Shown here one piece after another: positions 1,951-32,618 of a DNA stretch of 64,000 bases. This DNA comes from an uncultured Allobosea sp. Its GTDB lineage: Bacteria > Pseudomonadota > Alphaproteobacteria > Rhizobiales > Beijerinckiaceae. Made by a program: the position numbers and the translations under genes. The notes under the pieces are model-generated. The model was not told the origin of the DNA. It saw only the letters and a list, made by a program, of their open reading frames with translations, and ran no database searches. Positions within the stretch are counted from its first letter, which is position 1; each line of letters opens with the position of its first letter. The DNA lies in NCBI RefSeq assembly GCF_945956895.1, contig NZ_CAMFJF010000005.1, positions 1-64,000 on the forward strand, written 5' to 3'.

Positions 1951-3357
1951 ATGAAGCTGCCGCCGAAGCTCGGCTCCATCCATTTCGTCGGCATTGGCGG
2001 CATCGGCATGTCCGGCATCGCCGAGGTCCTGCACAATCTCGGCTACAAGGTGCAGGGCTCGGACGCCTCTGACGGCGCCAATGTGAAGCGCCTCGCCGAC
2101 AAGGGCATCACCACCTTCGTCGGCCACAAGGCCGAGAATCTCGGCGAGGCCGAGGTCGTCGTGGTCTCGACCGCGATCAAGCGCGACAATCCGGAGCTGC
2201 TCGCTGCTCGCGAGAAGCGCCTGCCGGTCGTGCGCCGCGCCGAGATGCTGGCTGAGCTGATGCGCCTGAAGAGCTGCGTCGCCATCGCCGGCACCCATGG
2301 CAAGACGACCACGACCTCGCTGGTCGCGACCCTGCTCGAGAAGGGCGGGCTCGACCCGACCGTGATCAATGGCGGCATCATCAACGCCTACGGCACCAAT
2401 GCCCGCATGGGCGAAAGCGACTGGATGGTGGTCGAGGCCGACGAGTCCGACGGCACCTTCCTGAAATTGCCAGCCGACGTCGCGATCGTCACCAATATCG
2501 ACCCCGAGCATCTCGACCATTTCGGCACCTTCGACGCGATCAAGGCGGCCTTCCGCTCCTTCGTCGAGAACCTGCCGTTCTACGGCTTCGCGGTGATGTG
2601 CATCGACCATCCGACCGTGCAGGGGCTGGTCGGCCAGATCACCGACCGCCGCGTCGTCACCTATGGCGAGAACCCGCAGGCCGATTTCCGCCTGATCGAC
2701 ATCGATCTCTCGGGCGGGCAGGCCAAGTTCACGCTGCTGATCCGCGACCGCAAGACCGGCCGCGACGAGGTGATCCGCGATCTCGTGATGCCGATGCCGG
2801 GCCATCACAACGCGCTGAACGCCACGGCGGCGATCGCGGTCGCCTATGATCTCGGTATCCCGGTCGAGCGCATCCGCGAGGCGCTGGCCGGCTTCGGCGG
2901 GGTCAAGCGCCGCTTCACCAAGACCGGCGAGTGGAACGGCGCGCTGATCTTCGACGATTACGGCCATCACCCGGTCGAGATTGCCGCCGTGCTCAAGGCG
3001 GCCCGCGCCTCGACCAGGAACAAGGTGATCGCGATCGTCCAGCCGCATCGCTACACCCGCCTGTCGAGCCTGTTCGACGATTTCGCCGCATGCTTCAACG
3101 ATGCCGACACGGTGATCGTGGCCGATACTTATGCCGCCGGCGAGGCGCCGATCGCCGGTGCCGACCGCGATTCGCTGGTCGCCGGCATCAAGGCGCGCGG
3201 CCATCGCCATGCGCTCCCGTTGGAGAGCCCCGACAAGCTCGCCGGGATGGTGGCGGAGCTGGCGGGACCGGGCGATTATGTCGTCTGCCTCGGCGCCGGC
3301 AACATCACGCAATGGGCCTATGCGCTGCCGAGTGAGCTCGCCGCGCTGAAGGGATAG
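1951..3357 (+). CDS. murC: UDP-N-acetylmuramate--L-alanine ligase MurC
   Basis: This cytoplasmic ATP-dependent ligase adds L-alanine to UDP-MurNAc, the first peptide-stem step. The 468-residue product has the N-terminal glycine-rich block [14 protein letters not shown] (about residues 14-27), the ATP-binding [11 protein letters not shown] (about 113) and DDYGHHP in the C-terminal domain, which is the order expected of Mur ligases. In most relatives murB follows directly. Here a repeat-bounded DUF559 gene separates them. Confidence 0.97.
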
Positions 3358-3364
3358 GTTTGTT

Positions 3365-3420
3365 TCCTTCTCCCCTCGGGGGAGAAGGTGGCCCGGCGAA
3401 GCCGGGTCGGATGAGGGAAG
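3365..3420 (+). repeat. Left 56-bp inverted repeat of the DUF559 unit
   Basis: This stretch is the exact reverse complement of 3878-3933; I compared all 56 bases and found no mismatch. It begins with the short palindrome CCTTCTCCCCTCGGGGGAG and contains a second one, CCCGGCGAAGCCGGG. It is also the left half of a longer imperfect palindrome, 3366-3491. Related sequence recurs at 32375-32423 and 32532-32590. Confidence 0.95.
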
Positions 3421-3491
3421 ATCGGGTGAGACGCAGCCAAGGCTGCCCTCATCCGTCTGCTTCGCAGCCACCTTCCCCCCGAGGGAGAAGG
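3366..3491. repeat. Palindromic intergenic repeat, CCTTCTCC/GGATGAGGG family
   Basis: This imperfect palindrome of about 126 bp lies directly after murC. The outer arms are CCTTCTCCCCTCGGGGGAG and its near complement ending GAGGGAGAAGG. The inner arms carry GGATGAGGG and CCCTCATCC. As RNA it could fold into one long branched hairpin and may act as a weak terminator or stabiliser after murC. A half copy ends the DUF559 gene. Confidence 0.85.
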
Positions 3492-3502
3492 TTCGCCTCT
3501 GG

Positions 3503-3937
3503 ATGAAAGGCATGGCCCTGCATCGCAAGAACTCATCCCGCACCCGCGATTTTGCCCGCGGCCAGCGCGAGGAGCCTACACGGGCTGAAGCTCTGCTCTG
3601 GCAAGCCGTTCGCAATCGCCGCTTCGCAGGGTTGAAATTCAAGCGCCAGATGGCGATTGGGCCCTTCATCGCTGATTTCTGCTGCTTCGAGCACAAGCTC
3701 ATCGTCGAACTCGACGGCGAGCCGCATCAGACTCTCGAAGCGCGTACCAGAGACGCTACCCGCACAGCTTTCCTGAAAGGGGAAGGCTATCGGGTCTTGC
3801 GCTTTCCCAATGAGCGCGTGCTAGGAAATCTCGAATTCGTCCTGCGCGAGATCGCAAGTGTTCTCGGTCTCGCCGGGCTTCCCTCATCCGACCCGGCTTC
3901 GCCGGGCCACCTTCTCCCCCGAGGGGAGAAGGAGTAA
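3503..3937 (+). CDS. DUF559 domain protein, Vsr-like endonuclease fold
   Basis: The product has 144 residues, or 141 from the second ATG at 3512. Residues about 20-120 match the DUF559 pattern: [18 protein letters not shown], then [25 protein letters not shown], and [11 protein letters not shown]. The acidic ELDGE and the D of IADFCC are candidate nuclease residues in this restriction-endonuclease-like superfamily. The role is unknown. The last roughly 19 residues ([19 protein letters not shown]) are encoded by the right 56-bp inverted repeat and are probably not a functional domain. The gene splits the usual murC-murB pair and has no homologous partner nearby, so it looks inserted. Confidence 0.85.
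3878..3933 (-). repeat. Right 56-bp inverted repeat of the DUF559 unit
   Basis: This is the exact inverted copy of 3365-3420. It encodes the C-terminal tail of the DUF559 protein, whose TAA stop lies at 3935-3937, just past the arm. It ends 14 bases before the murB start codon, so its GGGGAGAAGGA end also forms part of the murB leader. Confidence 0.95.
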
Positions 3938-3947
3938 GCGCCGAGCC

Positions 3948-4874
3948 ATGCCCTTCGCAGACCTCTCCTCCGACATCCGCGCCTCGGCTCCCGACCTGCG
4001 GGGCCGGCTTCTCGCCAATCAGGAGCTTTCGGGCCTGACCTGGTTCCGCGTCGGCGGCCCAGCGCAGATCCTGTTCACGCCGGCCGATGACGAGGACCTC
4101 GCCTATCTGCTCTCGAAGCTGCCGGAAGATGTCCCGGTCACGGTGATCGGCCTCGGCTCCAACCTGATCGTGCGCGATGGCGGCATTCCCGGCGTCGTGA
4201 TCCGGCTCGGCGGCAAGGCTTTCGGCGAGATCGCGCTGGAGAGCGGCGACCGCCTGCGTGCCGGCACGGCCGTGCCGGACGTGAAGGTCGCCCGCGCGGC
4301 GGCGGATGCCTCGCTCGACGGGCTTGCCTTCTATCGCGGCATTCCCGGCTCGATCGGCGGGGCGCTGCGCATGAATGCCGGCGCCCATGGCGGCGAGACC
4401 ACCGACGTGCTGGTTTCCGCGCGCGGCGTCACCCGCAAGGGCGAGATCGTGACGCTCTCCCATGCCGACATGGGCTTCACCTATCGCAACAGCGCGGCCA
4501 CGACCCGCGACATCATCTTCACCTCCGCCTTGTTCCAGGGACGGCCGGGCGATCAGGCGGTGATCCAGGCCGAGATGGACCGGGTGACGCAGGCGCGCGA
4601 GGCAGCCCAGCCGATCAAGGAGCGCACCGGCGGCTCGACCTTCAAGAACCCCGAAGGCGGCAAGGCCTGGAAGCTGATCGATGCCGCCGGCTGCCGTGGC
4701 CTGCGCGTCGGCGGGGCGCAGGTCTCCGAGATGCATTGCAACTTCCTGATCAACACAGGCGGCGCGACGGCCGCCGATGTCGAGGGGCTCGGCGAGGAGG
4801 TTCGCCGCCGGGTCAAGGAGACTTCCGGCTTCGAGCTCCAGTGGGAGATCAAGCGGCTCGGGGTTGCGGCGTAG
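3948..4874 (+). CDS. murB: UDP-N-acetylenolpyruvoylglucosamine reductase MurB
   Basis: This FAD-dependent enzyme reduces UDP-GlcNAc-enolpyruvate to UDP-MurNAc using NADPH. The reading frame is open from 3858, but the first 30 codons would be read from the palindromic repeat. The ATG at 3948 gives a 308-residue protein of normal length starting [11 protein letters not shown]. The FAD-binding blocks [12 protein letters not shown] and [18 protein letters not shown], the catalytic-serine block GGSTFKNP and the C-terminal LQWEIKRLG glutamate are present. Its 3' end overlaps the convergent EamA gene by 26 bases. Confidence 0.96.
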
Positions 4875-5736
4875 CCGGTACGGCCGAGGCGCGGCGGCGC
4901 GACAGGATCATCCCGACGATCGTCGAGCCGAGCACGATCGCGATGCCCAGGAATTGCAGAGGGCTCAGCCATTCGCCCAGCAGCAGGGCGCCCAGGATCG
5001 TCGCCACGGTCGGGCTGAGCAGCCCGAGGAAGGCGACGCCGGCGCCGAGCGTCGTGATGCCCCTGATCCAGAGCCAGTAGGTCAGGGCCGTGCCGATCAG
5101 CACGAGATAGGTCAGTCCGATGCCGTTCGGAGCGCTCGGTATCGGCGGCGCGCCTTCGACGATCAGGGCGACCGGCAGCAGGATCAGGCCGCCGAGCGTG
5201 AGCTGCCAGGCCGCGATGGCGAGCGGCGAACCCATCTTGCCCCAACGCTCGATCAAGACGGTGCCGGTCGCCATCGAGGCGGCACTCAGGAGGCCGGCGA
5301 TGATGCCGAGGGCATCGGGCTTGGCATGCGGATCGAGCACCAGCAGGGCGACGCCGACGAGCCCGGTGAGCGCTGCCACGATCTGCCCGCGGCCCGGACG
5401 CCGGCCGAGCAGGGGCCAGGCGAGCAGGCCGACGATCAGGGGCTGGGTCGAGCCGACGGTAGCGGCGAGGCCACCGGGCAGGCGCGCGGCGCTGACGAAG
5501 AGCAGAGCGAAGAAGATGCCGATATTGGCGAGGCCGAGCGCCGCCAGCGGCAGGAGCTTGTCGCGCGGCGGCAGGCCGGGGCCGAGCGCCATCAGCAGCA
5601 ATCCGGCGGGCAGGGCCCTGAGCGCGCCGACGAGCAGCGGATGATCCACCGGCAGCGTCTGGGTGAAGATGATGTAGGTCGTGCCCCAGATGCAGGGCAC
5701 GAGGATCGTGGTCAGCAAGGTCCTGTTCAGCGGCAT
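4849..5736 (-). CDS. EamA/DMT-family membrane transporter
   Basis: The 295-residue, strongly hydrophobic protein has two tandem EamA repeats of about five membrane helices each. The first opens with the [13 protein letters not shown] block typical of DMT exporters, and the second ends near residue 280. Exporters of this family move amino acids or small metabolites out of the cell; the substrate cannot be read from the sequence. The gene is divergent from a MarR regulator across a 118-bp region that contains an inverted repeat, so repression by that regulator is likely. Its tail overlaps the end of murB. Confidence 0.9.
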
Positions 5737-5792
5737 TTCGGCCTCCGATCGCGCGTCGCGCTTGGCTCGTGGCAGCGCGGTTGTTAGTTTGA

Positions 5793-5819
5793 TTTGATAT
5801 CAGATAATTCGACATCAAA
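5793..5819. promoter_or_regulatory. Candidate MarR operator between the EamA and MarR genes
   Basis: TTTGATATC at 5793-5801 and GACATCAAA at 5811-5819 form an inverted repeat with one mismatch and a 9-bp centre. A further half-site, GTCAAA, follows at 5829-5834. The stretch is AT-rich compared with its surroundings and sits in the shared promoter region of the divergent pair. Read on the minus strand, a TTGACG box within it could serve as the -35 element of the exporter gene. Confidence 0.6.
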
Positions 5820-5854
5820 CTATCTTACGTCAAATTACTTGGCAAGGAGCCGAA

Positions 5855-6352
5855 ATGAGTCAGGAGCGAGCCGGCGTTCAGGGCGGGCCGATGGATTCGA
5901 TCCTGGCGCAGTGGCGGCGGGAACGGCCGGACCTTGATACCAGCGTCATGGGAGTCTGCGGCGATCTCTGGCGGGCGGCGGACAGGGTGCGCGATGGGGT
6001 CTCCGCCAATCTCGCCGGCGACGAACTCGATCTCGCCGGTTTCGACGTGCTGCTGACGCTCCGGCGACAGGGCCGGGGCAGGGCACTCTCTCCGTCCGAG
6101 TTGGCCCAGGACATGATGATTTCGACCTCGGCGATGACCAATCGGCTCGACCGGTTGCAGAAGCGCGGGCTGATCGAGCGGCAGGCCGACCCGGCGGATC
6201 GCCGGGCCTTGCGGATCGTACTGACCGAGGCTGGCTTCGCGCTGGCGGACCGAATCGTCGTCAGCCATGTCGCGACCGAGGAGCGGCTGGTGAGCGCGCT
6301 TTCGGCGGAGGAGCGGGCGGAGCTACAGCGCCTGCTCGCCAAGATCGGCTAG
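5855..6352 (+). CDS. MarR-family transcriptional regulator
   Basis: This winged-helix repressor or activator has 165 residues. The MarR core runs from about residue 60 to 140 with LSPSELAQDMMISTSAMTNR (recognition helix region) followed by the wing RQADPADRRALRIVLTEAG. It lies divergent to the EamA exporter, and the space between them carries an inverted repeat, so control of the exporter and of itself is the likely job. The effector is unknown. A GGAG-like ribosome site sits upstream of the ATG (aaggagccgaa). Confidence 0.92.
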   Translation: MSQERAGVQGGPMDSILAQWRRERPDLDTSVMGVCGDLWRAADRVRDGVSANLAGDELDLAGFDVLLTLRRQGRGRALSPSELAQDMMISTSAMTNRLDRLQKRGLIERQADPADRRALRIVLTEAGFALADRIVVSHVATEERLVSALSAEERAELQRLLAKIG

Positions 6353-32367: not shown

Positions 32368-32374
32368 GCAGGGT

Positions 32375-32590
32375 CCTTCTCCCCTTGCGGGAGAAGGTGC
32401 CGGCAGGCGGATGAGGGGTCGCGCTGCCCTTTTCGTCATTGCGAGGAGCGGAGCGACGAAGCAATCCAGGGGCCGCTGAACTCTACGTCCCCCTGGATTG
32501 CTTCGCTGCGCTCGCAATGACGGCAGAGGTCGCGCGACCCCTCATCCGTCTCGGCCTCGCCGAGCCACCTTCTCCCGCAAGGGGAGAAGG
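32375..32590. repeat. Nested palindrome: CCTTCTCC/GGATGAGGG arms around a CGTCATTGCGAG repeat
   Basis: The outer arms run 32375-32423 (CCTTCTCCCCTTGCGGGAG to GGATGAGGGGTCGCG) and 32532-32590 (CGCGACCCCTCATCCG to CTTCTCCCGCAAGGGGAG). They belong to the family seen around the DUF559 gene. Inside sits a complete CGTCATTGCGAG repeat at 32434-32523. One repeat family has evidently landed in, or recombined with, the other. The structure lies between the convergent azlD and aminopeptidase genes. Confidence 0.9.
32434..32523. repeat. CGTCATTGCGAG palindromic repeat, copy 2 (nested)
   Basis: The arms CGTCATTGCGAGGAGCGGAG and CTGCGCTCGCAATGACGG surround the core AGCAATCCAGGGG...CCCCTGGATTGCTT. The copy lies inside the loop of the larger palindrome 32375-32590. 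Confidence 0.92.
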
Positions 32591-32618
32591 GAAGCCTCGC
32601 CGGAGAACGACGGGGCAA

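Follow-up and report, generated by a model that had tools for sequence, protein, structure and literature searches.

Enzymes dedicated to dispersed palindromic repeats include the RAYT nucleases. According to the parts of the reports available, the RAYT nuclease gene is flanked by two inverted REPs (PMC2817692), the repeats are dispersed as inverted doublets called REPINs, RAYT genes are single-copy with a tree largely congruent with that of the species (PMC3116915), and REPtrons are repeat-specific (PMC3733652). In a different repeat class, TM_ECO, a purine tract follows a pyrimidine-purine hairpin and the copies are arranged in inverted pairs, with 3610 copies in 262 proteobacterial genomes; the available text reports no mobility functions near it in E. 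coli, and ycjD, DUF559, Vsr and the word nuclease are absent from the main text of the paper (PMC4666352). Here we describe a DUF559 nuclease gene located between murC and murB in the first 64,000 nucleotides of contig NZ_CAMFJF010000005.1 (the window) from an uncultured Allobosea sp., a genome that we treat as Bosea, its nearest named hit being Bosea thiooxidans. This gene is enclosed by inverted repeats of a dispersed family, and we think it probable that its product is the dedicated nuclease partner of those repeats, in a REPIN/RAYT-like system that would combine a Vsr-like PD-(D/E)XK enzyme with hairpin or triplex repeats. The label refers to the way in which the system seems to work, the DUF559 system not being a RAYT.

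The gene (3503-3937, plus strand) codes for a protein of 144 amino acids and separates murC (1951-3357, plus strand, named by reading from its open reading frame (ORF) and position, and later used for the site tree) from murB (3948-4874, plus strand, an ORF with its ATG at 3948). An earlier note, made from the letters of the window, had described this split, a perfect inverted repeat of 56 bases, some 19 repeat-encoded residues and the DUF559 identity of the enclosed ORF, all of which were borne out. Over 56 nt, positions 3365-3420 match the reverse complement of 3878-3933 without a single difference, within arms that extend to 3365-3425 (plus strand) and 3873-3933 (minus strand, the inverted copy) with an extended match of 97%. 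The left arm contains a pyrimidine-purine hairpin (3366-3388), a GC hairpin and then GGATGAGGG, while the right arm encodes the C-terminal tail of the protein, the last 19 codons (from 3878) lying inside the 56-base repeat; the same tail type is found in other clade A DUF559 genes (the clade is defined below). A third, diverged palindrome (3469-3491, minus strand), 74% identical to the reference palindrome and 105 bp from that of the left arm, had been overlooked in the earlier note, and the left flank of the gene is therefore itself an inverted doublet (3365-3491). The domain (3539-3865, residues 13-121) matches PF04480 at 121.2 bits, the curated cut-off being 20.6 (E 2.2e-35), the single DUF559 match in this genome, and agrees with the Vsr/PD-(D/E)XK fold. 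Residues E29, D58, E69, D71 and H75, the putative catalytic residues, are kept in 201-203 of 204 aligned rows. The gene is under purifying selection, its median ratio of non-synonymous to synonymous divergence (dN/dS) being 0.127, compared with 0.156 for murB and 0.114 for murC.

Inverted repeats bracket DUF559 genes far more often than control places, as the earlier note had proposed to check. For the bracketing score, the 300 bp to the left of the DUF559 domain were compared with the 300 bp to its right and the best inverted match was taken, with a threshold of at least 18. In Bosea, 54/80 DUF559 loci reach it, against 1/2902 control windows of the same stretches, which overlap and are non-independent, as in the other samples. 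These 80 loci were taken from 89 matches in 67 genomes, excluding the match of the window itself, which was analysed on its own, a match lying at the start of a contig, and seven that were weak or split, two of which are the pieces of a broken copy in genome G006. An even alphaproteobacterial sample with one gene per genome (90 of 126 matching genomes, made up of 30 search loci and 60 best-listed matches from other genomes, 88 having enough flank) gave 49/88 bracketed loci and 0/876 controls, and 31 of these 49 bracketed genomes have no Y1_Tnp match. In other Pseudomonadota, 16 of 33 DUF559 loci, chosen for high scores and listed places from the 161 phylum-sample genomes with a match, are bracketed (controls 0/238). 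A first set of 39 named loci was left out of the evidence because it was biased, one search pattern being repeat-encoded. The DUF559 locus of pSymB in Sinorhizobium meliloti Ak57 scored 102 and was the sole bracketed one of four named loci.

These counts bear on the possibility that the repeats are passengers, moved by something else and found near DUF559 by chance or through an attraction to small dispensable genes. DUF559 genes are indeed small and often lost, and 4/406 other small genes in the Bosea stretches also score at least 18; set against the 54/80 DUF559 loci, however, that fraction is minute, and a passenger would not be expected to show a repeat type that tracks the nuclease clade or, on a tree model, a copy number that tracks the matching clade only (see below), so that we regard this explanation as very improbable. 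As a separate observation, one Bosea DUF559 clade of 15 genomes (L098, L106, L108, L110, L114, L117-L119, L121-L123, L129, L132, L134 and L174), mostly unbracketed, has shared flanks and a different C-terminal tail, and may have a different job.

The repeats are dispersed in the genome of the window. The left arm has 39 BLAST matches there, the two arms of the gene among them, from 40 scored candidates out of 51, and its palindrome has 39 exact copies, or 67 with up to two mismatches, while the reversed pattern used as a control has none. An inverted partner was found for 29 of the 30 copies examined out of the 39, a count that includes the two arms of the gene and in which several doublets are represented by both arms. 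Partners, those of the arms of the gene excepted, lie 94-230 bp away and are often of a slightly different type. One such doublet, without a gene, lies at 32374-32593 of the window (arms 32374-32404, plus strand, and 32539-32593, minus strand) and belongs to the same family, which fits the suggestion in the earlier note that 32375-32590 is a gene-less copy. Among listed places in genome G010, a DUF559 gene occupies one inter-arm gap of an array (G010:C1:816300-817907) in which inverted B repeats alternate at intervals of about 100-120 bp, an arrangement that is BIME-like. A loose scan for polymorphic doublets yielded 28 pairs of corresponding places, the edges of many being unaligned, from which two contrasts between a doublet and a solo palindrome were used, L105/L133 (two genomes) and L113/L107 (two places in one genome), together with the absences seen at the L106/L117 site. 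Dispersed copies within the Bosea stretches were too few for use: the D type has 5 copies, none paired, and under strict patterns 7/17 A and 6/12 B copies are lone. Searches gave hairpin matches alone in Rfam, all below the gathering score, and no match in PADLOC.

DUF559 clades and repeat types co-segregate. A domain tree of 81 Bosea proteins contains clades A (16 rows), C (9) and B (16, within a B/D clade of 34), and the repeat type differs between clades A, B, C and D. Protein similarity correlates with arm similarity (Mantel r 0.71 for 54 Bosea loci and 0.25 for 65 others, with 0/2000 permutations as high), a correlation to which orthologous sites may contribute in part. Counts of palindromes A and B covered each of the 67 Bosea genomes: A copies have a median of 35.5 in the 16 clade A genomes vs 4 in the 51 others (p 5.8e-6), and B copies a median of 18 in the 16 clade B genomes vs 2 in the others (p 1.6e-6). 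Phylogenetic generalised least squares (PGLS) on a murC+murB tree of 56 genomes, with the gene's own arms removed from the counts, shows that A copies increase with gene A (+1.70 log2, p 3.8e-4) and not with gene B (p 0.21), and that B copies increase with gene B (+1.89 log2, p 2.3e-4) and not with gene A (p 0.82); copy number thus follows the matching clade on this model. The main rival explanation starts from the same association: a Vsr-like repair nuclease could resolve hairpins or triplexes, so that possession of the matching enzyme would let a genome tolerate more repeats, without any spreading by the enzyme. We consider it unlikely, although a good deal less so than the other alternatives, because tolerance alone leaves unexplained both the position of the gene between inverted arms of the very family tolerated and the fact that repeat types co-segregate with nuclease clades.

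The history of the murC-murB site was followed in 56 of the 67 Bosea genomes, the other 11 having partial, distant or no usable matches; murB itself has a strong match in 66/67, that in G047 being trivial. According to junction classes assigned by eye, 15 of the 56 carry an intact gene, one a broken gene, ten a solo palindrome, two a gene-less doublet, one a single arm, ten another repeat and 17 no insert, so that empty sites, whose presence in relatives the earlier note had proposed to check, do exist; the closest relative by murB (G036, 96%) is among the genomes without the gene. No target duplication is definable, because the spacers differ too much. The ten genomes with another repeat (L207-L210, L212-L215, L220 and L230) contain a palindrome of the CCGTCATGCTCGGGCTTGACCCGAGCATGACGG type in the spacer, and the junction therefore gathers unrelated repeat families. 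On the site tree, the presence of DUF559 requires at least 12 changes. Synonymous divergence (dS) of the DUF559 gene correlates with that of murB (0.63) about as well as murB with murC (0.59; 105 non-independent pairs), which favours vertical inheritance with loss. The site history thus looks like an old insertion, inherited vertically, selected while present and frequently lost, with a possible exchange of alleles between species.

This history also bears on homing, in which a free-standing DUF559 endonuclease would cut palindromes at empty sites, the repeats being its targets, and its own gene would be copied in by repair. The dS correlation argues against it, the solo palindrome of G049, nested in a clade of gene carriers, fits excision, and gene-less doublets would not spread by homing; we consider this mechanism improbable. 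Of the proposal in the earlier note of a mobile or repeat-propagating unit, the pairing of nuclease and repeats stands, while movement of the gene-bearing unit itself finds no support at a site where the gene seems to have been inherited vertically and lost many times.

The Vsr-like fold of DUF559 invites yet another explanation, namely that the protein works with a C5-cytosine methyltransferase in very-short-patch repair and the repeats are terminators. The methyltransferase family (PF00145) is matched in 36/67 Bosea genomes. In the genome assembly of the window (161 contigs), however, it has no match, and 6/16 clade A genomes likewise lack one, and we regard this explanation as very improbable and the least likely of the alternatives.

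Many bracketing arms resemble the intrastrand-triplex repeats of the TM_ECO type. A pyrimidine-purine hairpin is present in 89/108 Bosea, 89/98 alphaproteobacterial and 31/32 other arms, and a purine mirror tract beating 95% of shuffles follows the hairpin in 31/89, 44/89 and 14/31, respectively. When no more than one substitution was allowed, the TM_ECO formula, CCCTCNCCC N3-6 GGGNGAGGG N3 GGGNGAGGG, was found at a distance of up to 300 bp from DUF559 at 13/80 Bosea, 23/88 alphaproteobacterial and 17/33 other loci, and in 2/1298, 3/363 and 0/112 of the respective controls. The arms of the window, CCTTCTCCCC/GGGGAGAAGG with a second loop of about 20 nt, do not match this formula; they share with TM_ECO the pyrimidine-purine hairpin, the purine tract and the inverted pairs, and differ in that the second loop is longer and is itself a hairpin.

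In E. coli, ycjD (MG1655 1351407-1351760) is a DUF559 gene located between sapF and fabI, and TM_ECO number 9 (1351204-1351239, from the table of PMC4666352) lies on its 3' side; no upstream arm was found at this locus. One query stretch, composed of the end of sapF, ycjD and the TM_ECO repeat, was run at E 10 against 59 evenly spaced chromosomes. Repeat places, which include the sapF locus and possibly looser matches, number 16-33 in the 37 chromosomes with ycjD (median 23) and 3-22 in the 22 without it (median 5.5), and all 13 chromosomes with at most 8 places lack ycjD. A second ycjD lineage has 22-30 places (best 40 of 2568 records), a count that is not comparable with those of the 59 chromosomes because its query held two repeats and covers the best 40 rows alone. 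In three strains without ycjD (L393, L394 and L396) an efflux operon adjoins sapF in its place, as described in the available text of PMC12817139.

Several observations weigh against a dedicated pairing of nuclease and repeats. The score is below 18 at 39/88 alphaproteobacterial, 26/80 Bosea and 17/33 other loci, the remaining named loci, from Methylobacterium aquaticum (10) and two E. coli (9 and 9), are unbracketed, and so are, as clades, two Bosea DUF559 clades (3/15 and 0/6 loci), without which 51/59 Bosea loci score at least 18. Before tree control, A copies associate weakly with clade B too (p 0.017), and the PGLS tree was built from murC and murB alone, that is, from the site of gene A. 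Independent pairs point in the same direction but are too few, with means of 3.8 same, 0.0 opposite and 5.2 tied of 9 for A, and 2.7 same, 0.1 opposite and 5.2 tied of 8 for B. The arms of the window fail the mirror-tract shuffle test (0/2). Finally, 9/22 E. coli chromosomes without ycjD, O157 among them, still hold 13-22 places (two O157:H7 strains retain 16), and the E. coli contrast represents few independent events because ycjD follows phylogroups, being present in A, B1 and C plus ST69 and ST182 according to the available text of PMC12817139.

Under the pairing that we favour, the nuclease would recognise and cut an arm that, being single-stranded or extruded, has folded into a hairpin or an intrastrand triplex; repair or copying after the cut could then spread the doublet in trans, the gene staying in place. 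That the nuclease spreads the repeats is a step that we infer from the genomic patterns described above. The broader proposal, that dispersed palindromic repeats are also spread by a second class of enzymes, which are not HUH enzymes but DUF559 proteins such as YcjD, and that these proteins are the source of TM_ECO-type intrastrand-triplex repeats in Pseudomonadota, seems to us evenly balanced between right and wrong. The recurrence of the pairing in many proteobacteria, together with the related E. coli case, suggests that the partner enzyme so far missing for a widespread class of bacterial repeats belongs to the DUF559 family. If so, a large and little-studied nuclease family would gain a function, and a repeat class linked to genome instability would gain an enzyme.

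Elsewhere in the window, a minus-strand ORF for a drug/metabolite-type transporter and an ORF for a MarR-type regulator (4849-6352; names taken from translations, not from a search) separate murB from the next cell-wall gene.

Among the matches listed, the literature on DUF559, ycjD and triplex repeats, with subscription journals and most preprints outside its reach, makes no tie to dispersed repeats, and 'vsr' is absent from that on REP/RAYT. Compared with Vsr and the homing endonuclease I-Bth0305I, the protein of the window has 144 amino acids, with one domain and a repeat-encoded tail, and differs from them in that its gene is bracketed by dispersed repeats and its genome has no methyltransferase match. 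Caulobacter VsrA (CCNA_02930) also has a Vsr-like DUF559 domain but was studied in connection with the ScmA methyltransferase, and dispersed repeats are not met in the available text of that report (PMC12907096). With respect to REPIN/RAYT systems, the enzyme between the arms is a PD-(D/E)XK DUF559 protein instead of a Y1 HUH transposase (Y1_Tnp, PF01797, has no match in the genome of the window at E 0.001), and the arm at 3365-3420 contains neither GTAG/CTAC nor CGTC/GACG on either strand. In other respects the comparison with REP/RAYT pairs drawn in the earlier note, with a Vsr-like nuclease in place of the transposase, fits: the gene is flanked by two inverted repeats of a dispersed family, the repeats are dispersed as inverted doublets with gene-less copies among them, the repeat type is specific to the enzyme clade, and the dS of the gene tracks that of murB.
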